Assembly: GCF_007097485.1 (NCBI RefSeq)
Contig: NZ_VKDE01000004.1
Span: 124,001-188,000 of the forward strand
DNA from: Carboxylicivirga sp. M1479
GTDB lineage: Bacteria > Bacteroidota > Bacteroidia > Bacteroidales > Marinilabiliaceae
Reading direction: 5' to 3'
Length of the DNA: 64,000 nucleotides
Shown here piece after piece: positions 20,025 to 60,650 of this stretch. Position 1 is the first letter of the stretch. Each line of letters starts with the position of its first letter. The notes below the pieces were generated by a model. The model was not told the origin of the DNA. It saw only the letters and a list, made by a program, of their open reading frames with translations, and did no database searches. Position numbers and translations under genes: made by a program.

Positions 20025-23000
20025 ATGAAGCATATATACTCTAAGGTTTTAACTGTTGTTTATATCTTGTTTTTTTGTGGGCATTTAGCCTCAGCTCAAT
20101 CAGGTCCAGCAGGCATTGGAAATAGTGATGGAAGTAATGGGCATCCTCATAATGTACTTTGGTTAAAAGCTGCTGCATTAACAGGCCTGTCCAACAATGA
20201 CCAACTATCCACTTGGAGTGATTTATCAGGGAATGGGCATGACTTTATTCAAACAAATGGTGTCAATCAACCATTGTATAACAATACCACAGGAATAAAT
20301 GGGAATGCTGTTATTTCATTTGATGGATCAGGAGACCATTTGACAGATGATGATATGGACAGTTATTTTGATGGACTAAGTGGTTTAACAACCTTTGCCA
20401 TTATTCGCTCCAACCAAATAAATACCGACAGAGGATTTTTCGATACACGATCTCCCAATGGTAGTGATGATCAGTTTGCTATACGCTATGATTCTGGAGG
20501 TGCTTCAGGAGGTGGTGATGATGTCGTTAAAATAGGCTTGCGTGCAGGGAATTCATCTCAAATAGAAACAAGCTCAAATGTTCAATCAACCAGTGCTCAG
20601 CTTATTACCGTTTGGTGGAACTCTGGAGATCAGATTAGTATTGGTTTCGATGGAGTTACCAATGCATTGTCGTATGGTGGAAATCCTATTACAGGAACGA
20701 TTAGTGGTACTGCTGCAGGTTATGTTGGAAAAGGTCCCAAGGATGCCAGTGCTGGTTGGGATGGAGATATTGCTGAATTAATTGTTTATGGCGATAAACT
20801 TAATGCTGCTCAACGTATTGTTGTTGAAAATTATTTAGCCGAGACATATAATTTAACAATTGCTAATGACGCCTACACAAATCCCAATTACATTGGCGAT
20901 TTAACTGGAATGGGGCAAGCAAGTGGCGAAACTCTTCCTCTATCGCAAAGTGCTGGGTTTTATGTGCAGGATAATGGTGGATTAAGTGATGGAGACTTTA
21001 TATTCTTTGCGCATAATAATGTTGTGAACGATGGCCCTACAACTATTGATATGCCAAGTGGTATTGCACAAGCTTGGAAAAGAGATTGGTATGTTCAAAA
21101 GACAGGAAACTTTGATGCTAAAATTATTTTTGATTTGCCAGAAGGTATTGGTGGTCAAAACCCAGGTGATTTAGTCAATTATAAATTACTATATCGTTCT
21201 GGCACAAGCGGAGATTACTCAATTGTTACTGCAAGTGTTGTTGCTGCTGATAGCGATCAAATTGCTTTTGATGTAGCTGATGCCAATATAGCAGATGGGT
21301 ATTATACATTAGGTACCACTAATTCAACTGCTAGTCCCGTAGAGGGAATTCCTGGTTTAACATGGTATACATTGGCTTCTGGTAATTGGACTGATTCAGA
21401 TATATGGACATTAGATCCTTCCGGGTCATTACCAAATAATCCAGCTAGCGCATATCCAAACCTGTTAACTGATAATATTGTGGTTAAAACTGGTAAAACA
21501 GTCACCATGGATGTAAATAACCTGACTTGTGATAAACTTACGGTTGAGGGGCGTTTAGATATGGCGCAGGCAAGTGGACATTCATTCTCAGTTATCAATG
21601 GTAATGGTCGTATTCTTATGGCTGCAGATAATTTTCCGGCAGGTGATGCGTCTCATTTTGTAACAAAGGGTCAAGGAGAGGGAACGGTAGAGTATTATGG
21701 GGGTATTATTTCCATATCTAGTGGACTAACATTTTACGATGTTGAAATAAGTTTGGATGATAAGGCCAATAGCCTAACATTTATCAACGACCTAAATATC
21801 AATGGAAATTTATTTGTTGAACAAGGTATTTTGCAAATTAATGATGGTGATAACTTAAACCCCTTAAATATTACCGTGGATGGGAATATTTCTGTAAAAG
21901 CTGATGGAGGAATTAGTGTAGGAACGGCTGATGCATACAATAGTTCGGCTCAATCAGGTTATGGTAATTACCACAAAGGCTTCCACGTATTAACAGTCGG
22001 TGGAGATATTAGTAATTATGGAAACATCCGTTTAACGAATCAAACAGTGCCTGATTATAACAGTAGAGCAATGAATGGAGCTGCATCTCTTGTATTTACA
22101 GGTGCCCGCAATACCCGATTTGATTGTTATAACACAACCAATTTATACATGATGGTTGTTGATAAAGGTGTAGATCGAACATATGAGTTAATAACATATG
22201 CTGATAATAAGGCCTATTTTACTTTGTTTGGTGATAATGATGAAGGTTGGAATACGGGAGTAATTGATAACCCTGAAATGAGAAAAGCACTATGGGTGAA
22301 AGCCGGTACATTGACTTTTTCTGGTGCGGTATACGTTTCTTCATTAACTGAGGGAGGTCGTGATTATACGATCGGTTATCCAGCAGCTATAAAAGTGGAT
22401 GGTCCAAACGTATATGTTAGTGTTACGGCCAATGAAAATTCCGATTACAGCAACTTGTCATTTGCACCAGGAACACCAGATGGAGTAAGGACATCAAGTG
22501 GGAATACGGGCTTGTATTTATTTGGTAAGCTTCTTGTTAATAACGGAACGTTATACCAGGGAGAAGGAGAAGCAATTAACTTTAGAGATGAGGCACCGGG
22601 TGCAATTGAAGTGAATGGTGGTGTATTAAGTGTTAATCAAATTGGAATTAGTTCATCAGCTTCCCGTGGTGATTTCTCATACAAACAGACTGGCGGTTTA
22701 GTCGAAATTCGTGGTGACTATGGTCCTGATGGTGACAATGCAATGCTAAATCTGAATACCTCGGATATGTCCTTCACTATGTCTGGTGGTGAGTTGCGTG
22801 TTTTAAGAACTACTTCAAATAATCCGAACGGAATACATATTTCAAGTGCGCCTGCAAATACCAATGTTACCGGAGGTCTGGTAAAGGTGTTGGCTAACGG
22901 AAATACAAATTTTCAAATTAATACCACAGTTCCCTTTTATAATTTTGAGGTGGAACGAGCTAATGCAAGTGCCGATGTAACAATTGATCTTCAAACTGAA

Positions 23001-26000
23001 CTGACGATATTAAATGACTTAACAATAAATGCCAATACTTTTTTAGACCATAATGGTTTTGATGTATCCATTGGTCGTAATTTCTCAATTGATGCCAATG
23101 CGACTGAGGTTAGTAATAATAAAGGTTATTTGTATGATGCATCTGCAACCAATACCACAACATTTAACGGATCTGAAGATGGGGTGTTTTATATTGGTCA
23201 CCCTTTTGATGATGGGTGGGAATTATACTTGCATAATCTTGTTATTGACAAGCCAGCTGATAAAACTCTATTAATTCAATCAGATACTGAGAAAGAAGCG
23301 GCTAATGTTTCAAATGATTTTTATGCAAGACTAATACAGGTGAAAAACAATACCCAAGTAATAGGCGGAACACTTGACCAAGGGGCTCAGTCCCTTCGAC
23401 TATATGGGCCAATTGAAATTTCGTCTATTGGTAAGCTTGGGGTTTATGAACATGGTACAACGCATATTGATGCATTAATCATGTTTAAGGATGCTGATGT
23501 TAGCATCATCACAGAAAATGGTGCTGAATTAGGAAATATTAAAATGAACCCAGCACCTAAAACCGATATCATCACCCTAACAAGTGATGTTAAAATAGGT
23601 AGAATATCGTATTACCATGGGCGCATAAATTTAGGAAGCCATCGATTAACGTTGGACTACTTCCATCAACAGAGTACAACCAATAATTACTCAATAAATA
23701 AAGGTAACGCTGCCCAGGAGATGTTTTATACAGATGGTAATGCATCTGATGGAGGTTTATCACTTTATGTTGATTCATCAATAGCTGATGGTACTGTTTT
23801 AGGATTTCCTGTAGGTGTATTAGGAAAGTATACACCTGTGGAGGTAACCGTGAGTAATGTTACTTCAGCGGGTTATATTAATGTTAATCCAGTAAATAAA
23901 GCACAGCCTTCTCTTGTAGGAGGTACAAGCAATGCTTTACAATATTATTGGAATATTCAGCCATTGGATTTTACGGCTGTGCCTGATGTTACAATGGATA
24001 TGGTATATGAAGATGTTGATATTGATGGTAATGAAAATAACTATGTCGCCGGAAGGTTGGTTAATTTTAGTACATGGGAGAATACCGTAGGAACAATAAA
24101 CACAAATAATAATAAAATAAAATACAGCTCCGGAGTATTGACAGAAGGTGATTATACTGCTGCTCAGAATTCGCGAATAAATGGTTCGGTAAGAGTACTG
24201 TATGCCAGAAAAAATGGTGAGTGGCACGATTATACGACATGGTCTACTACGGCAGACGGGGCTAACCCACTTAATAATAAGAATCAATTACCAGCAGCGG
24301 GTGATATTTGTGTTGTAGGTAGCACATCGTCTAATTATGCAGTAGCAATTAGTGAAACACATGACGATTATGAGGCTATTAATATTGCTCGTTTATGCAT
24401 TTTAAGATATGCATCCGGAGAAAGTTCAACAGTCACGATTGGTCAGAATGGTTCTGATTGTAATTTTGGTGTAGTTAGTAACTTAGATCCGGATATAGTT
24501 GATCCTTATTTGACAGAGACACATGGTAGTAAGATTATTGTTTCGGGTCCAGATCTCCCATTAGGTGATTTTGGTCAATTTATGAACGCTCCGAATACAC
24601 TGTGGACTTATTCGAGAGCTTTCCCTGGAACAAACTCTGCAATTGATGATGCAGATGGTGGTAATCTCTCAAATGTGTATTATGATGGATATGAAATAGG
24701 GACTTCTATAACAGAATATCCAGTTCTTCAATTTGAATATTCTGGAAGAACTAGTGGAGCTATACAGTATATCACATTGCCTGCAATTGACATAACCGTG
24801 CATAATGATATTCGATTTTTTAAAAACATTAACCACATAAAGCTTAATTCGGCTTTAAATGCTGATGTTGTAGTTGAAGACGACTTAGTGTTTAGTAATG
24901 GCGGTGTGACAGTTGAGTTTCAGGCGGCCGGTGCTAACAAGAGTTTAACTGTAAATGGAAATATTGATTATAACTCTAGCAGTAACACAAGCATCATTGT
25001 GGAAGAGCAGAATTCTACATCGGCTAAACATATAATAAAATTAGGAGGAGATATTATTAATGTCAGTGCTAGCTCCTCAATTGAAGGATTTTACTCAGAA
25101 TCTAAGAGTTATTTAGATATTGAATTTAATGGAAATGGTAATTCAATTTGGGAAGAGTTTGTTGATGTGCCATCGATTAACCAATTGATTATAAATAAAA
25201 CTGATGGATTAGCAGAGTCTGTTGAGTTATTATCTGAAGTTACATTAGGATCTTTAGCAAATAGCGGATCGGAATTAAAACCTATACAATTAAAAAGTGG
25301 ACTTCTAATTCTAAATAAGGATAATACAAATTGGGTATTATCTAACGGAGGCGATAATTTCTCAATACCTTCTATAGCAGCACTTGAGGTAACTCAAGGT
25401 ACAGCTTCTTGCTTAGGGAATTCTGGTATATCCTTAGATGGAGCCCTTTATGTTTCTGGTGGAACAGTTGATATGAGTGGAGGTGATAACTTCATTGAAT
25501 ATTCAGCTTCTGGCAATGCATGCATTGAGGTTAGTTCGGGTGCATTAACGGTTGGTTCTCAGATAAGAAGAGGCTTAGCAACAGATGATGGCATATTAAA
25601 TTATATACAAACAGGTGGAGATGTTATTGTTGGTCAGTACAGTGCTCCAGAAGGAACCAGGGGGGTACTTGAGGTATTAGGTGTTGGTAGTAACTTCGAA
25701 CATTCAGGTGGTTTATTGCAAATCGCAAATGGACAAGCCAATGCGAGTGTTGCTTCCTTGTATCTTGAGCCGGAAAATTATTCCATAGGGTCTGGTACAA
25801 CTATTACCTTTGATCCGGTACAAACGAGTGGTGTGAATGGAATTAGCGTTTATTCATCAATACCATTAAAAAATGTGTTGCTAAAAGACGATGTTAATCT
25901 TAGTGTGAACTTGTTGACGGTGCCTCTAACAATAGAGGAGAATTTTGAAATAGAAAGTAATGCAAGCTTTGCTGCCAATGGTTTAGATTTAAATATTGGA

Positions 26001-29000
26001 GGTAATTTTAGCAATGCAGGTAATTTTGCTCATAATAACAACACTACGACCTTAATAGGTAATGCAGCTCAGCAAATTATCGGTAACACCGTGTTTTATA
26101 ATTTAACAAAAACTGAGAATTCAGATTTAGTATTACAAACGGGTACTACTGAACTAACAGTTGATAATATTTTTGATTTTCAGGCAGGAACCATATATGA
26201 TAATGAAAATACGATTTCAATTAAGGGCTATGTCAATTTTGCTGGAACTCATGAGTATAGTGGTATTGGCAAGGGATTATATCTTACGGGATCGTTAAAT
26301 CAAGAATTAAGTGGTGGTGGAGTCATTGGAATGTTAACGATTTTTAACCCTGAAGGAGTTGATATACCTATTGGTAATGCGTTTACTATTAATGATAAGT
26401 TGAGATTAGAAACAGGTATATTTAATATCGATAAGAATTTACTATTGCTATCTGAAACATGTATCATTGAGCATGGTCTTGAAGATTTCTCGTCAAATAA
26501 TATGATTCAGAATAATATCTCATTTACCGATAATGGTGTTAAAAAGATATTCCCGAAAGTGACTTTTGGTGTTGATCCAAGTTATAGTTTTGTTTATCCA
26601 ATGGGCTCGGGTGGTAAATATACTCCTGTATCAGTGGTGATGACCAATAATGGAACAAACACAGGTAGTTTAACCGTTAAGCCTGCTAATGAGTATCACC
26701 CAAGTGTGGATGATCCAAATAATGTTCTTCATTACCATTGGGAATTAAAATCTGATGAAATCTCAGATTTTACCGCTACGGTGAAAATGAAATTTGTATT
26801 GGAAGACGCTCATGTTGATGGTGCTAATTTAGTGACGGACTACATCACAGCTCGTCTATTGTCAGATGGAACAGGTGATTGGAATAAATTCTCAGGTTCT
26901 GGAGTAATTGATGAATCATCCAACGAGTTAGTTTTCGATTTTGCAGGTACTGATGATGCTGGTATTAGCGGTGCTTATACAGCTGGTATTAATGAAGCTA
27001 TACCTGATCAGGTTCCGTCATATATAACAATAATGGATGGAGATTGGACCAATGAAAATATTTGGGACTCCTACCCAGTTTCTGGTGGTACCGTACCTGC
27101 AGGTGGGCCGAGAGGTTCCATCGTTTATGTTGCTCACGATGTTGATGTGCCAAATAATTTCCTTTCAGTGTATAGAACCAATGTACAGGCAGCAGGAATC
27201 TTAAATATTGGATCTACTTTTGGTCACCGTGTTGGTGATGTGAGCGGAACAGGACGAATTAAATTGGAGGATCAGGGAAGCCTGCCAGCTGGTGTTTATG
27301 ACGACTTTTTTGCAGAAACCGGCGGTACTATTGAATTTTCAGGAAGTACAGATTATGATTTTTTAAGTGATATTAATAGTCTAAACCATGTGATATTAAG
27401 TGGTACTGGCGAACGTCGTTTCCCTAACTTGGATTTATCTGTTAAAGGTGATTTGAGTATAGTTGGAGTTGAGGCTATTAACGAACACAACAGAAATATT
27501 TCGTTGAAGAAAAACTTCTATTTTAATGGAGGAGCTTTTGATTCAGGAGATAATGGAGCTAAAATTATTTTTAATGGTACAACTCTTCAGTTGATTGATG
27601 GAACAAGTAGTTTTATTGGAACAAACGGAATTGATTACCTTGAAATGAATAACCCTGCTGGCATTGAATTGAAAGTAAGTGTAAATGTGGATAGTTATTT
27701 AAATTTAAAGAATGGTATCATCTATAATATCAATGAAGATGCATTCGTTGTTAATAGTGCCTCGGCTTCTTCCGTTATAGGTGGTGGGGCTAGCTCGTAT
27801 GTTCAAGGTCCTTTAACTAAACTTGTGAATAACGGAGAAAGTTTTAGTTTCCCGATTGGAGATGCAGACAGGCTAGGAGATGTGTTGATTAGTAATACTA
27901 TAACCGGTAGTGCTGATTATTGGACAGCTGAATATTTTAATAATAATCCAGGAAATGATAGCAAAGATCCTAATAGTGTGAGTGGAGATATCGAATTTGT
28001 TAGTCAAAATGAATATTGGCGTATTCAAGGACCAGCATCAGGCAAGGCCGAAGTAACATTGCGTTGGGATAATTTAAGTGGTGTTAATCCAGATGCAAAC
28101 TTTAGAGTTGTAGAATGGCTTAGTGCTTTCAATTGGGGCGAAGTGGATATTGCAACGCCTAATACAACTATGCAAACTGTTAAGACAGATTTGGCAGCTG
28201 TATTCAATGAATTTGCAGGAGAAGGGAATTATTTCACATTTGGTTCAATAAATATTCCAGCGTTTACGTGGAAGGGTACGGGAACTACTGGTAACTGGTT
28301 CGACGTTACTAACTGGACCGGAGGCATTATTCCATCTGCTGGCACCGATATTACTTTAAATGATGATGGACTTGCACCTTTTATTCCAAATGATGTTCTG
28401 GTTGCTCAAGTAAATAATTTAACCATTAATCATACGGGCGGACTAACCATGAACCCTGGGGCTCAATTGACGGTTAATGGTAATTTAACTACTAACGGTT
28501 TGTTATTTGTAGAAAATACCAATGCCAATCCAAGTTCATTAATTACGCATGGAACGGTTACAGGTAATGTTGCGATGAAATGGGCTTATGATAATGAGCG
28601 TTGGTGGTTTATTGGTCATGCGATTGCTAATCCAACCATGGCTGAATATGAAAAGATACGTGATGAGCAATCCAATGATTATGCCATGTACGATTTAATT
28701 AATGATGGTTCATTCTACAAAGTATCCTCTAATGTAGGAACTTACGACTTAAGTGGTCAGAATGAATTGCAAGGGTACCTGTTTAAGGTTCGTTATGCAG
28801 GTGCTGAGGTTACTCAAGTAGGAACATTAAATAATTTAGCAACTTATCAAATGCCACTACAAGATGATTGGCAGATCATGACCAACCCTTATGCTTCGTA
28901 CTATAAATTACCAAAGCAAACAATAAGTGGAGCTGATTTTGAGCACACAACCGGAACGGTTTATGTTACGGTGTCCACTCGAAATAGCGATAAGACCTTT

Positions 29001-29861
29001 GAGACATTTAACACCATCTCAGGTTTGTCGTCACCTGAAACTTTTGCCAATGGTATTCTTGCTCCAGGGCAGGCCTTCTACATTCAAACCGAACCAAGTC
29101 ACAATGGTCAGATGGTTTATATGCGACAGGGTAATCGAGTTCATGATGTGAACAAGGTGTCTTTGAAGTCGCAAAAAACGGATGTTGATGTAATAAGAGT
29201 GAAGCTTAATAATGGCGAATTAACTGACGAGGGCGTTATTGCCTTGAGGGAGAACGGCGATTTTGCATATTCACGCATTGATTCGGAGCAGAAATTTACA
29301 ACAAGTAGTAATTATTCCTTTATTTATTCTGTAGTTGATGAAAAATCACTGGTGATTAATGTGCTTCCGCAGGATGTGTCGAATAGCTCAGTTACCCTAG
29401 GCTTTAAACCAAAATTTGCAGGTGTTCACACCATTACAATCGATGGATTATCAAGCTTAGTTGATGATTATAAACTTCAACTGGAAGATACAGAGGTGGG
29501 AGTTATTGTAGATATGGATGCCACTACAGAATATACTTTCTCAGCCAATGAGCAGGAAAATAATACGCGCTTTATATTGCACTTTAGCAAAACCGAGGTA
29601 GCAACCGGTATTGAAGATGAGAACGAAGGTGCAAGCGAAGAAGTGAATGTATTTATTCAAAACAAAAGTTCGCTGCATGTGAATTGCGATTGGTTAGGGG
29701 AGAAGCACTTAATGCTTTATACGCTGGATGGACGATTGATATCTAATCAAACATTTGATGGCGCATCATTTAAAGATGAACTGAACCTACAGCCAGGTGT
29801 GTATATTGTAAAAGTATTAGGCGATGATAAACAATACGAGCAGAAAGTATTTGTTCGTTAA
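20025..29861 (+). CDS. giant secreted T9SS protein with LamG-like domain and beta-helix (3278 aa)
   Basis: Signal peptide 1-25 (HLASAQ). Residues about 40-280 look like a concanavalin/LamG fold (LWLKAAALTG, WSDLSGNGHDF, FDGSGDHL, GDIAELIVYGDKLNAAQRIVVENYLAETY). The next 2500 residues are beta-helix-like with recurring openers (WYTLASGNWTDSDIW, ARKNGEWHDYTTW, ITIMDGDWTNENIWDSY, WKGTGTTGNWFDVTNW) that suggest at least four repeated blocks. From about 2860 follows the C-terminal module shared with the two upstream proteins, ending in a type A T9SS sorting domain (LYTLDGRLISNQ, PGVYIVKV, EQKVFVR). At about 9.8 kb it is the largest gene here and intact. Probable surface adhesin or matrix protein. 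Confidence 0.92.
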   Translation: MKHIYSKVLTVVYILFFCGHLASAQSGPAGIGNSDGSNGHPHNVLWLKAAALTGLSNNDQLSTWSDLSGNGHDFIQTNGVNQPLYNNTTGINGNAVISFDGSGDHLTDDDMDSYFDGLSGLTTFAIIRSNQINTDRGFFDTRSPNGSDDQFAIRYDSGGASGGGDDVVKIGLRAGNSSQIETSSNVQSTSAQLITVWWNSGDQISIGFDGVTNALSYGGNPITGTISGTAAGYVGKGPKDASAGWDGDIAELIVYGDKLNAAQRIVVENYLAETYNLTIANDAYTNPNYIGDLTGMGQASGETLPLSQSAGFYVQDNGGLSDGDFIFFAHNNVVNDGPTTIDMPSGIAQAWKRDWYVQKTGNFDAKIIFDLPEGIGGQNPGDLVNYKLLYRSGTSGDYSIVTASVVAADSDQIAFDVADANIADGYYTLGTTNSTASPVEGIPGLTWYTLASGNWTDSDIWTLDPSGSLPNNPASAYPNLLTDNIVVKTGKTVTMDVNNLTCDKLTVEGRLDMAQASGHSFSVINGNGRILMAADNFPAGDASHFVTKGQGEGTVEYYGGIISISSGLTFYDVEISLDDKANSLTFINDLNINGNLFVEQGILQINDGDNLNPLNITVDGNISVKADGGISVGTADAYNSSAQSGYGNYHKGFHVLTVGGDISNYGNIRLTNQTVPDYNSRAMNGAASLVFTGARNTRFDCYNTTNLYMMVVDKGVDRTYELITYADNKAYFTLFGDNDEGWNTGVIDNPEMRKALWVKAGTLTFSGAVYVSSLTEGGRDYTIGYPAAIKVDGPNVYVSVTANENSDYSNLSFAPGTPDGVRTSSGNTGLYLFGKLLVNNGTLYQGEGEAINFRDEAPGAIEVNGGVLSVNQIGISSSASRGDFSYKQTGGLVEIRGDYGPDGDNAMLNLNTSDMSFTMSGGELRVLRTTSNNPNGIHISSAPANTNVTGGLVKVLANGNTNFQINTTVPFYNFEVERANASADVTIDLQTELTILNDLTINANTFLDHNGFDVSIGRNFSIDANATEVSNNKGYLYDASATNTTTFNGSEDGVFYIGHPFDDGWELYLHNLVIDKPADKTLLIQSDTEKEAANVSNDFYARLIQVKNNTQVIGGTLDQGAQSLRLYGPIEISSIGKLGVYEHGTTHIDALIMFKDADVSIITENGAELGNIKMNPAPKTDIITLTSDVKIGRISYYHGRINLGSHRLTLDYFHQQSTTNNYSINKGNAAQEMFYTDGNASDGGLSLYVDSSIADGTVLGFPVGVLGKYTPVEVTVSNVTSAGYINVNPVNKAQPSLVGGTSNALQYYWNIQPLDFTAVPDVTMDMVYEDVDIDGNENNYVAGRLVNFSTWENTVGTINTNNNKIKYSSGVLTEGDYTAAQNSRINGSVRVLYARKNGEWHDYTTWSTTADGANPLNNKNQLPAAGDICVVGSTSSNYAVAISETHDDYEAINIARLCILRYASGESSTVTIGQNGSDCNFGVVSNLDPDIVDPYLTETHGSKIIVSGPDLPLGDFGQFMNAPNTLWTYSRAFPGTNSAIDDADGGNLSNVYYDGYEIGTSITEYPVLQFEYSGRTSGAIQYITLPAIDITVHNDIRFFKNINHIKLNSALNADVVVEDDLVFSNGGVTVEFQAAGANKSLTVNGNIDYNSSSNTSIIVEEQNSTSAKHIIKLGGDIINVSASSSIEGFYSESKSYLDIEFNGNGNSIWEEFVDVPSINQLIINKTDGLAESVELLSEVTLGSLANSGSELKPIQLKSGLLILNKDNTNWVLSNGGDNFSIPSIAALEVTQGTASCLGNSGISLDGALYVSGGTVDMSGGDNFIEYSASGNACIEVSSGALTVGSQIRRGLATDDGILNYIQTGGDVIVGQYSAPEGTRGVLEVLGVGSNFEHSGGLLQIANGQANASVASLYLEPENYSIGSGTTITFDPVQTSGVNGISVYSSIPLKNVLLKDDVNLSVNLLTVPLTIEENFEIESNASFAANGLDLNIGGNFSNAGNFAHNNNTTTLIGNAAQQIIGNTVFYNLTKTENSDLVLQTGTTELTVDNIFDFQAGTIYDNENTISIKGYVNFAGTHEYSGIGKGLYLTGSLNQELSGGGVIGMLTIFNPEGVDIPIGNAFTINDKLRLETGIFNIDKNLLLLSETCIIEHGLEDFSSNNMIQNNISFTDNGVKKIFPKVTFGVDPSYSFVYPMGSGGKYTPVSVVMTNNGTNTGSLTVKPANEYHPSVDDPNNVLHYHWELKSDEISDFTATVKMKFVLEDAHVDGANLVTDYITARLLSDGTGDWNKFSGSGVIDESSNELVFDFAGTDDAGISGAYTAGINEAIPDQVPSYITIMDGDWTNENIWDSYPVSGGTVPAGGPRGSIVYVAHDVDVPNNFLSVYRTNVQAAGILNIGSTFGHRVGDVSGTGRIKLEDQGSLPAGVYDDFFAETGGTIEFSGSTDYDFLSDINSLNHVILSGTGERRFPNLDLSVKGDLSIVGVEAINEHNRNISLKKNFYFNGGAFDSGDNGAKIIFNGTTLQLIDGTSSFIGTNGIDYLEMNNPAGIELKVSVNVDSYLNLKNGIIYNINEDAFVVNSASASSVIGGGASSYVQGPLTKLVNNGESFSFPIGDADRLGDVLISNTITGSADYWTAEYFNNNPGNDSKDPNSVSGDIEFVSQNEYWRIQGPASGKAEVTLRWDNLSGVNPDANFRVVEWLSAFNWGEVDIATPNTTMQTVKTDLAAVFNEFAGEGNYFTFGSINIPAFTWKGTGTTGNWFDVTNWTGGIIPSAGTDITLNDDGLAPFIPNDVLVAQVNNLTINHTGGLTMNPGAQLTVNGNLTTNGLLFVENTNANPSSLITHGTVTGNVAMKWAYDNERWWFIGHAIANPTMAEYEKIRDEQSNDYAMYDLINDGSFYKVSSNVGTYDLSGQNELQGYLFKVRYAGAEVTQVGTLNNLATYQMPLQDDWQIMTNPYASYYKLPKQTISGADFEHTTGTVYVTVSTRNSDKTFETFNTISGLSSPETFANGILAPGQAFYIQTEPSHNGQMVYMRQGNRVHDVNKVSLKSQKTDVDVIRVKLNNGELTDEGVIALRENGDFAYSRIDSEQKFTTSSNYSFIYSVVDEKSLVINVLPQDVSNSSVTLGFKPKFAGVHTITIDGLSSLVDDYKLQLEDTEVGVIVDMDATTEYTFSANEQENNTRFILHFSKTEVATGIEDENEGASEEVNVFIQNKSSLHVNCDWLGEKHLMLYTLDGRLISNQTFDGASFKDELNLQPGVYIVKVLGDDKQYEQKVFVR

Positions 29862-32427: not shown

Positions 32428-32500
32428 AAAAAAAAGGACTCTTAAGCCGTTGCCTAAAGTCCTTTTTACTAACCTAACCCAAATCTATGAAAAAAATCTG
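32428..32500 (-). ncRNA. sigma-54-driven small RNA, copy 1
   Basis: About 73 nt. The 5' end is placed 12 nt after the -12 element. The 3' end is the T run of an intrinsic terminator: AAAAGGACT pairs with AGTCCTTTT, with an inner TTAGGC/GCTTAA stem and AACG loop. The stretch 32429-32506 is identical over 78 nt to the copy at 57126-57203, while the bases between promoter and start differ. It has no credible open frame. Located between aspS and the PurF-like gene. Target unknown; a regulatory sRNA is inferred. Confidence 0.75.
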
Positions 32501-32510
32501 ATAGGTATAT

Positions 32511-32527
32511 TGCAAGCCTTGTGCCAA
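32511..32527 (-). promoter_or_regulatory. sigma-54 (RpoN) -24/-12 promoter
   Basis: Minus strand TTGGCACAAGGCTTGCA fits the consensus TGGCAC-N5-TTGCW with GG and GC exactly 10 bp apart. The same 16 bases occur before copy 2. A conserved block extends upstream to about 32580 and may hold an activator site (AACTTAAGT). Confidence 0.85.
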
Positions 32528-32601
32528 AAAGCATATCACTTAAGTTACTGGAAGTTAAAAGATGAAAACAAATGTAGATATCTAGAATCGTACATGTGAT
32601 T

Positions 32602-32672: not shown

Positions 32673-34574
32673 TTAATAGGCTCTTCCTGTATTTCCTTCA
32701 ACAAAGTTGATGAATGAAGTATTAACCACTTTGTTGCCTCCAGGAGTTGGATAATTACCTGTGAAATACCAATCACCATTGTCATTAGGACAAGCTTTGT
32801 GGAGATTTTCAATCGATTGGTACACAATTTCAATATCGGCATCAATATCCTCAGGACGTAACATTTCTGCTATTTTAGCTGATATTTGCTCTGCCGTAAA
32901 AGATTCGTAAATTTCTTTTACATGATTAACAATTTCTTCCTTAGGAAGGTATTGCTGCTCTTTACACTTCTTATAAACCGTGTCAATTATGCTTGTTTTA
33001 CCTGTGTCTTTAAGTAGTTCAATGGTAGCAGCAAAAGCACAAAAGTCTTTCAACTTTGCCATATCTATACCATAACAATCAGGGTAGCGTATTTGTGGAG
33101 CGGATGAAACAACAATAATTTTCTTAGGATGTAAACGATCCAGTATTCGTAAAATACTTTGTTTAAGTGTTGTTCCTCTTACTATTGAATCATCAATAAT
33201 AACAAGTGTGTCAACGCCATTTTTAACAATGCCATAGGTCACATCATAAACATGAGCAACCATATCATCACGACTGTCGTCATCGGCAATAAAGGTGCGC
33301 ATTTTCACATCCTTAATAGCGATTTTTTCAACCCTTGGTTCAAGACTTAAAATTTTGTCTAATTGATCAGGATCAATATCATTGCCTAAATCAAGTATTT
33401 GCTGTTTTTTAACTTGATCCATTTCACGACGAACACCTTCCATCATGCCATAAAATGCTGTTTCAGCAGTATTAGGGATGAAAGAGAATACGGTGTTCTC
33501 TATATCATAATCAACTTTTTCAAGTATGGATTTGGCAAGTGAACGGCCTAACTCTTTGCGCTCTTCATATATTTGACGGTCGCTACCTCGTGAAAAGTAA
33601 ATGCGCTCAAAAGAACAAGAACGACGCTCCTGCGGAACACGAACTAACTCTTCTGATACTTTACCATTCTTTTTAATGATTAATGCATGACCTGGCTTTA
33701 ACTCCTTAACCTGAACCGAACGAATGTTCATGGCCGTTTGGATAACAGGTCGCTCAGAGGCTACTACTACAATCTCATCATCGGCATAATAGCATGCCGG
33801 ACGAATACCCCAAGGATCACGTGCAACAAAGGCATCGCCATGACCAACAACACCTGCTATGGCATAACCTCCATCCCAGCGTCGGCTTGAACGTTCTAAT
33901 ATTTCGCGAATATTAAGTTCTTCTTCAATGCAGGCAGAAATCTCTAGGTTGTTTTTACCTTCGTTTTTATATTTTCTGAAAAGCAATTGGTTCTCTTCAT
34001 CAAGGAAGTGACCAACATTTTCTAGGATAGTTACCGTATCGGTATAATCTTTCGGGTGCTGACCAAGTTCCGTTAAAGACTGGAATATTTCATCAACATT
34101 GGTTAAGTTGAAGTTCCCAGCTAATGTAAGGTTTCGTGAGCGCCAGTTATTTTCCCTCATAACCGGGTGAACGTAATCGATGCTATGGTTTCCAAAAGTA
34201 CCATATCGTAAATGACCTAAATACAATTCACCAGCAAATGGCAAGTGTTCTTTGGCGAACTGAGCATCATTTAGTTTCGCGGCATCTTTGTCTTGCTGCT
34301 TTATAAATGGTGCGTTAATTTTTTCAAACACATCCTTAATCGGATTCGCTTTATTAGAGCGATGTCTTGAAAAATATTTTTGGCCCGCTGGCTGATCAAT
34401 CTTTAGGTTGACAGCACCTGCTCCATCTTGCCCTCTGTTATGTTGTTTTTCCATTAACAGATATAGCTTGTTTAAGCCATATCGCCATGTACCATACTTT
34501 TCCTGATAGTACTCCAGTGGCTTCAATAATCGGATAAGAACAATCCCACACTCGTGCTTAACTTGATCACTCAT
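32673..34574 (-). CDS. amidophosphoribosyltransferase-like protein (long PurF family)
   Basis: 633 aa, longer than classical PurF (about 470-500). A glutaminase domain starts with Cys9 after a short propeptide (KHECGIVLI), the N-terminal nucleophile. HNRGQDGAGAV, GHLRYGTFG and RDPWGIRPACYY are typical of class II amidotransferases. The phosphoribosyltransferase domain has the PRPP motif VIIDDSIVRGTTLKQSI. The extra about 100 residues at the C-terminus (KACPNDNGDWYFTGNYPTPGG) are typical of a Bacteroidota PurF-like group as far as I recall. It likely makes phosphoribosylamine for purine synthesis, but no other pur gene is nearby, so it may be a paralogue with another role. Confidence 0.85.
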   Translation of the reverse strand: MSDQVKHECGIVLIRLLKPLEYYQEKYGTWRYGLNKLYLLMEKQHNRGQDGAGAVNLKIDQPAGQKYFSRHRSNKANPIKDVFEKINAPFIKQQDKDAAKLNDAQFAKEHLPFAGELYLGHLRYGTFGNHSIDYVHPVMRENNWRSRNLTLAGNFNLTNVDEIFQSLTELGQHPKDYTDTVTILENVGHFLDEENQLLFRKYKNEGKNNLEISACIEEELNIREILERSSRRWDGGYAIAGVVGHGDAFVARDPWGIRPACYYADDEIVVVASERPVIQTAMNIRSVQVKELKPGHALIIKKNGKVSEELVRVPQERRSCSFERIYFSRGSDRQIYEERKELGRSLAKSILEKVDYDIENTVFSFIPNTAETAFYGMMEGVRREMDQVKKQQILDLGNDIDPDQLDKILSLEPRVEKIAIKDVKMRTFIADDDSRDDMVAHVYDVTYGIVKNGVDTLVIIDDSIVRGTTLKQSILRILDRLHPKKIIVVSSAPQIRYPDCYGIDMAKLKDFCAFAATIELLKDTGKTSIIDTVYKKCKEQQYLPKEEIVNHVKEIYESFTAEQISAKIAEMLRPEDIDADIEIVYQSIENLHKACPNDNGDWYFTGNYPTPGGNKVVNTSFINFVEGNTGRAY

Positions 34575-56828: not shown

Positions 56829-57104
56829 GTATTGATTAGTTAATAATAGCATATTAAACGAAAGCTTGAGTTGGGTGTAATTGATTGAAATTAAATCACA
56901 TATAAAGTGATTGATTTTGAGAAATTCTTTAATTGCATATTGCACTGTGGCCTCTCTTTTAAATAGCTTACGTTTTATAGAGAGCAAATATTACCTAAGC
57001 AATAAAAGTCTAGTTTGCTTTATACATCATTCATATATGTCAGAATGTATATATCTACATTTGTTTTCATCTTTTAACTTTCACTAACTTAAGTCATGCG
57101 CTTT

Positions 57105-57120
57105 TTGGCACAAGGCTTGC
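57105..57120 (+). promoter_or_regulatory. sigma-54 (RpoN) -24/-12 promoter, copy 2
   Basis: TTGGCACAAGGCTTGC followed by T, identical to the 16 bases before copy 1. The block 57050-57104 is also strongly conserved between the copies and may hold an enhancer-binding-protein site. Confidence 0.85.
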
Positions 57121-57131
57121 TGTAAACCTAT

Positions 57132-57203
57132 CAGATTTTTTTCATAGATTTGGGTTAGGTTAGTAAAAAGGACTTTAGGCAACGGCTTAAGAGTCCTTTT
57201 TTT
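57132..57203 (+). ncRNA. sigma-54-driven small RNA, copy 2
   Basis: About 72 nt by the same reasoning as copy 1 (12 nt after the -12 C, ending in the terminator T run). The 5' half is single-stranded and U/G-rich (GGGTTAGGTTAG); the 3' half is a long hairpin with AACG loop acting as terminator. It lies between the RemB-like gene and an unknown minus-strand gene, opposite in strand to copy 1, and shares no flanking gene with it. Confidence 0.75.
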
Positions 57204-57296
57204 GTGCAATAAACTCTATAAGACTCTTCTGTGTGTATAGGCAAAGCAAAATAGCTTATGAGTATGCCGAAGTGCAATAGGGGCTATTGATTTTGA

Positions 57297-57415
57297 ACAG
57301 GAAGCTATGATCTTGTACAGGAGCATGATTGTAGGTAACAGGAAGGTCAAATCCCGAACAGGAGCAATAGATCACGGTGATTTAATGCTCCTGTCCACTG
57401 CATTGAGCTTCCTGT
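57297..57415. repeat. degenerate 20-21 bp direct repeats with inverted units
   Basis: ACAGGA at 57297, 57317, 57338 and 57358 (spacing 20, 21, 20), alternating continuations AAG and GC. Inverted CCTGT at 57390 and 57411 (spacing 21) lies within the 3' end of the minus-strand gene. All units fall on one face of the helix. Confidence 0.75.
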
Positions 57416-58364: not shown

Positions 58365-60650
58365 ATGGAGTATGACTTTTCGAAGCTTAATGATAGGGAG
58401 TTTGAAGCATTGGGAGCATCAGTTGTTGGGAAAGTATTAAATGAAAGAATTGAAACCTTTAAACCTGGTAGAGATGGTGGAGTCGATGGTAGATTCTGGA
58501 TTGGCGCCAAAAAAGAAGGAATTATTCAATGCAAACACTACATCGGGACTCCATATAATATTCTAATATCAAAATTAAAATCAGAGGAATTAGCCAAGGT
58601 TAAAAAGCTTGAGCCCGCCAAATATATATTTATTACATCTCAGAAACTATCAAGGTTAAATAAACAAGAAATACGAGCGATATTTCATCCATACATAGTG
58701 AGAGAGGATGATATTTTTGGTAAAGAAGATTTAACTGACTTTTTGTTAAAAAAAGAAAATCAGGATATAGTTGAGCAAAATCTTAAATTATGGATTACGA
58801 GTACTTCTGTCTTAGATTTAATTTATAATAATGCTATTAAGGGACGAAGTGAAAGTACAATACATGAAATAGAAGAAAATTCTTACATGTATGCTGTTAC
58901 AGAAAATCACAATAAAGGACTGAGGATACTAGAAGAAAATAATGTCGTAATAATGACTGGTGAACCAGGAATTGGCAAAACAACTCTTGCTGATAATTTA
59001 GCACTTTATTATACCGCTAGAGGGTATGAGTTTTGCGACATTGAAGAGGATTTTAGCGAAGCTGAAAGTATATTTAGAGAAAAAGAAAAAAAGAGAATAA
59101 TATTTTACTGTGATGATTTTTTAGGCAGTAATATGTATGATGCTGTTAATAACAAAAGAGATTCACATATTGTTAAATTTATAAATAGAGTTCGTAAGGA
59201 TAAATCTAAAAAATTTATTCTGACATCAAGAACGAATATCTTGAATAAGGCTTACAGTCTAAGTCATAAATTTCAAAATAAAAATATTCGTGATAATGAG
59301 TTATTACTTCGAGTTGAAAATTTAACAGACTTGGATAAAGCAAATATCCTATATAATCATATATATCATTCCAACTTGAATAAGGAATATATAGACGTAA
59401 TATATCAAGAAAAAAGATATAAAGACATAATAAAGCATCGCAATTTTAATCCACGGATAATCGAATTCGTTACCGACAATATTAGAGTTGGGAATATTAC
59501 GCCAGTTGAATATTGGGATTACATAAAAAGAAATCTAGAAGAACCTGAAAGTATATGGGCTGATTATTTTCAAAACCAAACAGATGATTGTGTTAGAGCA
59601 TTAACGTATCTCACTGTTTATAATAATGGTAAGATATCAGAAGAAAAACTTAGATATTCATACAATACGTTTCTTAAAATTCATCGTGTAAATTTAGGTG
59701 ATTACTCTGACAAGAGCTTTGAAGCAATAAGGAAATTAGCTACTAAATCATTATTAAATAGAAATCAGACTGATAAAACAAATTATGAGTATACCCTTTT
59801 TAATCCATCTATTGCAGATTTTATATTAAGTTCTTATTCTGGAGAGTGTGAGTTAATTTCAAATATTCTAAAATCGCTAGGAACACAAACTTCCATAAGT
59901 TATTTAAACACTCTTTCTGTTTTTAATAAAGTAAATAAACAGTGCTTAGAAAAGATTCAAGAAAACTTATTTGACTATTTTTTCGAAGAAAAATTGGCAG
60001 AGGAAAATTGGGATTTCTTAATATTGCTATCCTATATTAATATTTTCAATGAGAGCATAAAAACGAGAATAGAACAATTCATAGAAGTTTTGTTAAATAC
60101 TGATTATCCTAGGGGAAATAGATTATCCGAACTCTTAATGATATTAACAGAATTTGAACCCCAAATAGAAGTTAAGAATTACGATTTTCTAAAGAATTTT
60201 ATTGAAGACACCATAGATGAAGATTCTTTGAAAGAACTATTAAATTTTATTGAAAAATTTAATATTACAGATACACATATATTCTCCCTAGTAGAAAATA
60301 AAATTGGACTTTACTTGGAAGATATTATTGCTAATGATGGATTAGACATTGATTTTAGTAGTAATATCAATCACTTTGAATATCCAGATGGTTATTCTGA
60401 CTTTGAAATTAACACAACAGGTATTGAATCAGAAGCATATGAAAGTTTAGATTATTGTTTAGAGGGTTTTAATGAATCCGTTTTGGAAAAGATAGAGTTT
60501 AGTACATCAAATATTGTTTCGAATTTAGATTTTGAAAGTATGGCAATGACTTATTTAGAAAATCAAGATCCTTATGATGATACGAGAGGGTATGCTGCAA
60601 TTACACCTTCTTTTCAAGATGGTATTGATGCGATTTTTGAACGTTCATGA
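58365..60650 (+). CDS. Mrr-type nuclease fused to STAND (nSTAND3-like) NTPase, probable anti-phage defence
   Basis: 761 aa. The N-terminal Mrr-like PD-(D/E)xK nuclease domain (about 1-110) begins DFSKLNDREFEALGASVVGKV, with GRDGGVDG (Asp41) and IIQCKHY (Gln55, Lys57), a complete catalytic set. A STAND-family NTPase follows (about 180-400): P-loop GEPGIGKTT at 199-207, Walker B IIFYCDDF (Asp250/251), and a sensor-like FILTSRTN. Residues about 400-761 are helical and variable, likely the ligand sensor. This order fits Avs-like defence proteins that recognise phage proteins and cut DNA, but it is smaller. The gene is visibly A/T-richer than its neighbours, suggesting horizontal gain. No cognate methylase is adjacent. 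Confidence 0.8.
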   Translation: MEYDFSKLNDREFEALGASVVGKVLNERIETFKPGRDGGVDGRFWIGAKKEGIIQCKHYIGTPYNILISKLKSEELAKVKKLEPAKYIFITSQKLSRLNKQEIRAIFHPYIVREDDIFGKEDLTDFLLKKENQDIVEQNLKLWITSTSVLDLIYNNAIKGRSESTIHEIEENSYMYAVTENHNKGLRILEENNVVIMTGEPGIGKTTLADNLALYYTARGYEFCDIEEDFSEAESIFREKEKKRIIFYCDDFLGSNMYDAVNNKRDSHIVKFINRVRKDKSKKFILTSRTNILNKAYSLSHKFQNKNIRDNELLLRVENLTDLDKANILYNHIYHSNLNKEYIDVIYQEKRYKDIIKHRNFNPRIIEFVTDNIRVGNITPVEYWDYIKRNLEEPESIWADYFQNQTDDCVRALTYLTVYNNGKISEEKLRYSYNTFLKIHRVNLGDYSDKSFEAIRKLATKSLLNRNQTDKTNYEYTLFNPSIADFILSSYSGECELISNILKSLGTQTSISYLNTLSVFNKVNKQCLEKIQENLFDYFFEEKLAEENWDFLILLSYINIFNESIKTRIEQFIEVLLNTDYPRGNRLSELLMILTEFEPQIEVKNYDFLKNFIEDTIDEDSLKELLNFIEKFNITDTHIFSLVENKIGLYLEDIIANDGLDIDFSSNINHFEYPDGYSDFEINTTGIESEAYESLDYCLEGFNESVLEKIEFSTSNIVSNLDFESMAMTYLENQDPYDDTRGYAAITPSFQDGIDAIFERS

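Follow-up and report, generated by a model that had tools for sequence, protein, structure and literature searches.

A FopS-like small RNA family with a sigma-54 branch in Carboxylicivirga and related Marinilabiliaceae

Introduction

What kind of RNA is encoded by two inverted, nearly identical loci of Carboxylicivirga sp. M1479, and what might it regulate? TGGCAC-N5-TTGCW is the promoter of RpoN (sigma-54), a sigma factor that responds to signals, and the Qrr small RNAs (sRNAs) of Vibrio are multicopy RNAs with sigma-54 promoters. An original prediction placed two Qrr-like sRNA copies behind such promoters in a 64-kb stretch of this genome (the window) and held that no such sRNA had been described in the phylum. 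We analysed these loci, their relatives, and their predicted targets.

Results

Two sRNA copies follow perfect sigma-54 elements

We identified the following features at the two loci:

57132-57203, plus strand: sRNA copy 1, a U-rich 5' seed (CAGATTTTTTTCATAGATTTGGGTTAGGTTAGTAAA) and a terminator, supported by sequence and genus conservation, with the start predicted from the -24/-12 spacing
32428-32500, minus strand: sRNA copy 2, which lies 3' of a purF-like gene, at a locus also present in eight other genomes of the genus
57105-57120, plus strand: copy 1 sigma-54 promoter TTGGCACAAGGCTTGC, an exact pattern match evaluated with a shuffle control
32512-32527, minus strand: copy 2 sigma-54 promoter TTGGCACAAGGCTTGC, an exact pattern match
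57165-57203, plus strand: copy 1 terminator-like hairpin with an AACG loop, then a T-run, from folding
57075-57088, plus strand: copy 1 TAAC-N6-TAAC repeat, a candidate operator that is present in the other promoter class too
32544-32557, minus strand: copy 2 TAAC-N6-TAAC repeat
57045-57060, plus strand: copy 1 near-palindrome ATGTATATATCTACAT, a candidate enhancer (UAS)
32572-32587, minus strand: copy 2 palindrome TTCTAGATATCTACAT, a candidate UAS
32673-34574, minus strand: gene for a purF-like glutamine amidotransferase that scores under the purF model cut-off, adjoining copy 2 and serving as the orthologous-locus marker
32428-57203, no strand: segment between the inverted sRNA copies, with a gene block (purF-like gene to 55230 ORF) that is inverted relative to the outer genes by comparison with genome G011

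The two sRNA copies with perfect sigma-54 elements are real and lie on opposite strands, where they had been predicted. GG and GC are spaced by exactly 10 bp in both -24/-12 elements, and the exact TGGCAC-N5-TTGCW pattern has two matches in the window, both at the sRNA copies. The 5.4-Mb genome contains six exact matches (a reversed control pattern has one). Starts are predicted 12 nt past the -12 C, at 57132 for copy 1 and 32500 for copy 2. As described originally, the copies share 78 identical nucleotides (57126-57203). Their flanks had been called unrelated, but similarity continues to approximately 60 nt above the -24 box, with 95% identity across 153 nt that include the palindrome and the TAAC-N6-TAAC repeat. 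No ORF of at least 80 aa in the ORF listing overlaps either copy.

Folded in isolation, the two copies reach -18.9 and -19.2 kcal/mol (z-scores of -3.1 and -3.6), and the seed also pairs weakly with itself. Folding bears out the predicted intrinsic terminator as a hairpin and T-run; a simple promoter/terminator scan flagged no element in 56900-57400, and the terminator call thus rests on folding. The 3' part folds at -8 kcal/mol or below in all 78 sigma-54 copies classified below, 71 of which have a run of at least four T, and the AACG loop is invariant in 10 aligned copies. Terminator covariation in one alignment comprises three pairs with double changes, which is not above shuffles. Just 3' of copy 1, at 57276-57394, an AACAGGA-type sequence recurs imperfectly as three direct repeats, and an inverted repeat of 18 bp is present.

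Seed and promoter classes change together

A DNA search identified the element in 37 of 60 genomes, including that of M1479. R1, a sequence-only model of the sRNA, matches 66 of 71 genomes of the bacterial family (again including M1479), with 7-16 matches in each of 14 genomes of the genus. M1479 itself has 12 R1 matches at E <= 0.01. Reading by eye, five of these have a sigma-54 promoter (the two window copies, one copy on C73, and a tandem pair on C54), and four, in tandem on C87, combine a TTTG-type -7 box with another seed. The other three matches are weaker. Both seed/promoter classes coexist in this genome. The C87 array (G000:C87:31758-32331, L180) consists of four FopS-like copies approximately 166 bp apart with TTTG-type promoters and a GGATTTAGTTAACGAAC seed.

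We classified 150 copies from 100 stretches (core with at most five errors, a minimum of 130 nt upstream, no exact duplicates) into seed and promoter classes that were defined after a first look at the copies. The GGGTTAGG-type seed occurs in 100 copies, with a sigma-54 promoter in 78 cases, a TAnnTTTG (ABfr) box in 3, and neither in 19. The GGATTTGG-type seed occurs in 48 copies. None of these has a sigma-54 promoter, 46 have the housekeeping TAnnTTTG box, and the 2 scored as neither read GATATTTG and CATATTTG. Two of the 150 copies belong to neither seed class. After dinucleotide shuffling of the upstream regions, a mean of 0.82 of 150 (maximum 3) still receive a sigma-54 call. The sigma-54 promoter class is well supported.

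The sigma-54 branch is found in genera g1 (taken to be Carboxylicivirga), g3, g11, g12, and g20. Genus g3 has 11 promoterless copies, 10 of which have another core 97-107 nt upstream; in 9 of those, this other core is preceded by a sigma-54-like site. Also in g3, loci L143-L152 of genomes G073 and G034 contain paired sRNA units, the first with a sigma-54-like site and the second, approximately 100 nt on, without its own. Two g1 copies (L102 and L114) have in common a third type of upstream sequence, CCCTATT...GAAAGCA.AAGAG, which belongs to neither of the promoter classes. Genome G002 encodes three sub-threshold Acido-Lenti-1 RNA matches approximately 512 bp apart beside FopS-like copies (L110:1773-2842, minus strand).

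The strict pattern occurs in 2 of 393 evenly drawn Bacteroidales genomes, M1479 and one genome of the same family, of which the draw included only six. The R1 model matches 3 of 395 genomes drawn from the phylum at E <= 1e-4, M1479 included, a result that says little because strict filters were applied. Among 50 named stretches that contain the pattern, those from Bacillus, Flavobacterium, and Brocadiia look like chance matches, and several further Bacteroidales metagenome-assembled genomes look real. We rejected spread by phages: viral contigs contain no match to the 23-nt core and one match to the promoter-plus-core pattern.

These sRNAs constitute a real, conserved family of the FopS kind that has a sigma-54 branch. 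Genomes of relatives keep the promoter across many species and M1479 encodes a complete RpoN, which supports the original reading of the loci as paralogous sRNA genes behind RpoN promoters. The refuting case named with that prediction, copies confined to one species and lacking a conserved promoter, does not hold.

Chromosomal positions are conserved and the second copy coincides with an inversion

At three chromosomal positions, sigma-54 copies are found again in 8, 12, and 11 other genomes, and these positions are kept over much of the genus Carboxylicivirga. Eight other genomes encode the purF-like gene of the copy 2 locus at 90-93% identity, in every case beside the sRNA. One gene next to the C73 copy also accompanies sigma-54 copies elsewhere, in 13 genomes in total, and genes next to the C54 pair do so in 12 (M1479 included in both cases); we take these neighboring genes to encode DJ-1/PfpI, RuvA, and ThiL.

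The gene order in the window is aspS-sRNA-purF-like...55230-sRNA-57372...61772-63018, versus 63018-61772-sRNA array-purF-like...55230-aspS in G011. The 24.6-kb block between the copies is therefore inverted relative to its surroundings, and the opposite-strand sRNA copies mark both of its breakpoints. Both junctions are visible in G011 only; G010 contains the junction of 55230 with aspS, and G009 the one on the 61772 side. The distance between 55230 and aspS is 165-176 bp in G010 and G011, with no core between. The location of the copies at the ends of the inverted block ties the second copy to the inversion. One possibility is that the locus was duplicated by a staggered-break inversion; the other is that inverted copies recombined and thereby flipped the block.

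Genes 61772 and 63018, which lie beyond copy 1, adjoin the sRNA array in G011 and G009, and G013 encodes a 50%-identical relative of the 57372 gene 1.6 kb from an sRNA. We rejected a plain duplication of copy 1 into an unrelated place: the genes beyond it adjoin the sRNA in relatives and the inter-copy segment is inverted.

Two large window proteins were also identified. A 761-aa protein near copy 1 (58365-60650) contains nSTAND3 and Mrr-like domains and matches the PADLOC candidate PDC-S73 over nearly its full length, making it a predicted defense gene. A 3278-aa ORF (20025-29861) has a sub-threshold G8 domain as its sole Pfam match.

A TAAC repeat precedes many copies of both promoter classes

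We identified an upstream TAAC-N6-TAAC repeat, which has a 10-bp period, in 27 of 77 sigma-54 copies (20 of 56 in g1, 5 of 7 in g11, 1 of 2 in both g12 and g20, and 0 of 10 in g3) and in 30 of 49 ABfr copies of the bacterial family. Dinucleotide shuffles contain it in means of 0.25 (sigma-54) and 0.07 (ABfr) copies, with maxima of 3 and 1. At other spacings from 3 to 11, the TAAC repeat is found in no sigma-54 copy and at most two ABfr copies. The exact repeat is absent from the upstream regions of 32 canonical FopS copies. The looser TTAA-N6-TTAA repeat is present in 18 of 77 sigma-54, 37 of 49 ABfr, and 15 of 32 canonical FopS copies (shuffle means of 1.95, 0.80, and 1.23), and is less specific in the sigma-54 group because N8 and N9 spacings give 9 and 8. 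In all three groups, the repeat mostly lies 68-84 nt before CAT[AG]. A single regulator may bind the TAAC repeat in both branches.

The palindrome ATGTAnATATnTACAT is associated with the purF-like locus. Both window copies and the eight orthologues contain it with 0-4 mismatches, beginning 59-60 nt above the -24 T. Across sigma-54 copies, 8 of 78 contain it with at most three mismatches (shuffle mean 0.2, maximum 1), and it is thus no general feature. Upstream regions have no general dyad excess (28 of 78 sigma-54 copies versus a shuffle mean of 33.5; 13 of 50 ABfr copies versus 18.7), so the palindrome claim rests on one orthologous locus.

The genome encodes RpoN and candidate activators

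The genome combines the GG-N10-GC elements with the machinery of a sigma-54-dependent unit. M1479 has a single, complete RpoN (AID, CBD, and DBD domains). Fourteen of its proteins exceed the Pfam cut-off for the sigma-54 activator domain, eight strongly and six weakly. A Fis-type HTH domain is present on six of the eight strong proteins, L037 and L040 being the exceptions. Genes similar to these activators occur in the fetched flanks of copies in 2 of 100 stretches (L107 and L117).

Elsewhere in the genome, two exact sigma-54 sites lie within ORFs and two are intergenic. One intergenic site (L006) precedes a 75-aa ORF. The other (L001, C41:111294, minus strand) has no close ORF, with no sense ORF above 90 codons in the next 330 nt, and is followed after approximately 280 nt by a GAGGCTG...CAGCCTC hairpin with a T-run. 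L001 is possibly another sigma-54 non-coding RNA.

In Flavobacterium psychrophilum, the genes predicted to have sigma-54 promoters act in envelope stress, protein quality control, and motility (PMC9723704), and a 2025 survey links Bacteroidota chaperone genes to sigma-54, with no mention of sRNA or SusC in its searchable text (PMC12316311). A link from stress to transporters is plausible.

The seed is predicted to pair with SusC start regions

Read as its reverse complement, the 5' half of the RNA corresponds to a start region, ...CCCAAATCTATGAAAAAAA, and the seed is antisense to AUGAAAAAA starts. In B. thetaiotaomicron, base pairing of FopS RNAs with the starts of SusC mRNAs blocks translation, an effect opposed by the RRM protein RbpB (PMC11697453). 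The M1479 genome encodes 43 SusC proteins over the cut-off and one RRM protein above the NF058537 cut-off.

We ranked predicted duplexes for 295 genes with uncurated starts. The sample centered on SusC loci, 30 of which it included along with the window. For the sigma-54 seed, nine of the ten best-ranked genes and 17 of the best 40 are SusC genes, and 40 full-seed shuffles place a mean of 5.8 in the top 40 (maximum 12). The ABfr seed places 22 SusC genes in the top 40 (shuffle mean 7.4, maximum 13), and the leading SusC genes are partly different ones. When the U-rich CAT half at the 5' end was kept and the rest shuffled (n = 60), the top 40 contained a mean of 11.7 SusC genes (maximum 18), with 1 of 60 shuffles reaching 17. 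Since these half-kept shuffles still enrich SusC, much of the SusC signal is generic start-codon pairing by the AUGAAAAAA complement. Their top 10 contained at most seven SusC genes, with none of the 60 reaching nine, and 5 of 60 matched the median difference. The distal seed adds to the generic start-codon signal. Near-perfect sites (at most 3 mismatches in 20) are absent from the M1479 genome except at the sRNA loci.

The enrichment by the 5' half also fits an alternative in which the sigma-54 sRNAs have main targets other than SusC, as generic start-codon complements active against numerous Met-Lys-Lys starts or against a small number of unsampled genes. Good scores also occur among non-SusC genes (for example C1:110926, at -28.1), and the sample spans only about 0.69 Mb of the genome. 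The 9 of 10 leading SusC genes, a result that shuffles of the 3' half do not reproduce, and the FopS precedent (PMC11697453) argue against this alternative, which we consider unlikely. As predicted from the duplexes, SusC repression by the sRNA is likely.

Discussion

Relationship to FopS

The best Rfam resemblance of the RNA is to FopS (RF04319), at 24.9 bits against a gathering score of 56 and thus below the cut-off. RF04319 has no match in the M1479 genome under strict filters, nor in seven sRNA loci at E <= 0.5. Under strict filters, it matches 87 of 393 Bacteroidales genomes, 75 of them above the cut-off. Conversely, the R1 model reaches 3 of 20 canonical FopS loci (four matches, E 0.002-0.006) and has one match elsewhere.

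This weak covariance-model cross-match could mean that an independent family converged on the FopS seed, since any AUGAAAAA antisense looks alike. Several observations argue against convergence. Intermediates in the same bacterial family combine TAnnTTTG promoters with a GGATTTGGTTAAC seed, the TTAA-N6-TTAA repeat is found above sigma-54, ABfr, and canonical FopS copies, and length, layout, and multicopy habit are the same as in FopS. The R1 model also reaches two genomes of another Bacteroidales family (E 3e-5). We consider convergence improbable, somewhat more so than a set of targets outside SusC.

The original comparison with Qrr holds for the layout, as both are multicopy with sigma-54 -24/-12 promoters, but no Qrr family matches the window at the Rfam gathering cut-off, nor 56950-57350 at E <= 5. 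Quorum-sensing sRNAs of the Qrr type, dependent on Hfq and activated by a LuxO homologue, are a highly improbable identity given that the seed resembles FopS and that Bacteroides is said to be without classical RNA chaperones (PMC11697453). Equally hard to credit is a mobile element or duplicated non-coding repeat that plays no regulatory role, such as a recombination site: although the window copies are inverted, the segment they bound is inverted relative to G011, and tandem arrays exist, three chromosomal positions are kept over much of the genus, RNA and promoter bases stay while flanks drift, and viral contigs nearly lack the element.

The claim that no such sRNA was described in the phylum is not supported, as the RNA resembles FopS, a multicopy, sigma-ABfr-driven family of Bacteroides (PMC11697453). 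A literature search that covered few subscription papers found no report of a FopS-like RNA under sigma-54.

Proposed mechanism

We consider it probable that these are FopS-like multicopy sRNAs and that sigma-54 and an enhancer-binding protein make RNAs that prevent the translation of SusC. In this reading, the FopS-like family has, in Carboxylicivirga and part of the other Marinilabiliaceae, a sigma-54 branch next to a housekeeping (sigma-ABfr) branch. Once activated, the enhancer-binding protein would enable sigma-54 RNA polymerase to make a 72-73-nt RNA consisting of a U-rich seed and then a terminator. At the purF-like/window locus, this protein plausibly binds the palindrome approximately 87-72 nt above the start. 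The seed, antisense to ...AAAUCUAUGAAAAAA start regions, would pair over the SusC mRNA start codon, blocking ribosome access. A single RbpB-like RRM protein may oppose the sRNA.

A second regulator that reads TAAC-N6-TAAC may adjust both promoter branches. FopS-mediated control of glycan transporters in Bacteroides was reported in 2025 with sigma-ABfr promoters and a proposed upstream regulator (PMC11697453). The shared operator is the boldest part of our account. Tentatively, the sigma factor may have been exchanged under a kept operator. One TAAC-N6-TAAC regulator would then govern the sigma-54 and housekeeping copies in the same cell, and promoter and seed would have changed together, leaving each sigma branch to silence a separate part of the set of 43 SusC genes. 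We regard this extended scenario as rather doubtful.

These findings extend FopS-like RNAs to another family of Bacteroidales, where one branch carries sigma-54 promoters and the seed differs according to the sigma factor. They also offer a candidate operator (the TAAC/TTAA-N6 repeat) and, at one locus, a candidate enhancer. The question of what turns FopS on is therefore directly testable.

Comparison with known systems

Like the Qrr sRNAs, the RNAs described here have multiple copies and sigma-54 promoters; unlike them, they have no Rfam match to Qrr and belong to another phylum, and their chaperone, activator, and targets may differ as well. RybB and MicA of E. coli are sRNAs under an alternative sigma factor (sigma-E) that cut outer-membrane protein synthesis, acting with Hfq on porins. 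We propose that an alternative-sigma sRNA cuts outer-membrane protein synthesis here as well, a functional parallel only.

GibS also combines an R1-type seed with a promoter type other than that of FopS. It differs from the present RNAs in that its promoter motif is PM2 (-10/-30 boxes) and in carrying an additional seed, R2 (PMC7366714, PMC11697453).

FopS differs from the RNA described here in its sigma-ABfr promoter. The window copies have sigma-54 promoters instead, the sister branch on C87 has an ABfr box, and the present RNA falls below the Rfam cut-off. The seeds also diverge, continuing as GGGUUAGGUUA here and as GUAUUAGAUUUAAGGUUAA in FopS. The two otherwise share a length of approximately 65-70 nt, multiple copies, a 3' terminator, and a 5' seed that is rich in U and contains UUUUUCAU, the complement of AUGAAAAA starts (PMC11697453). 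Both further have candidate SusC targets and an RRM protein in the genome, and the TTAA repeat with its 10-bp period stands above nearly half of the canonical FopS copies.
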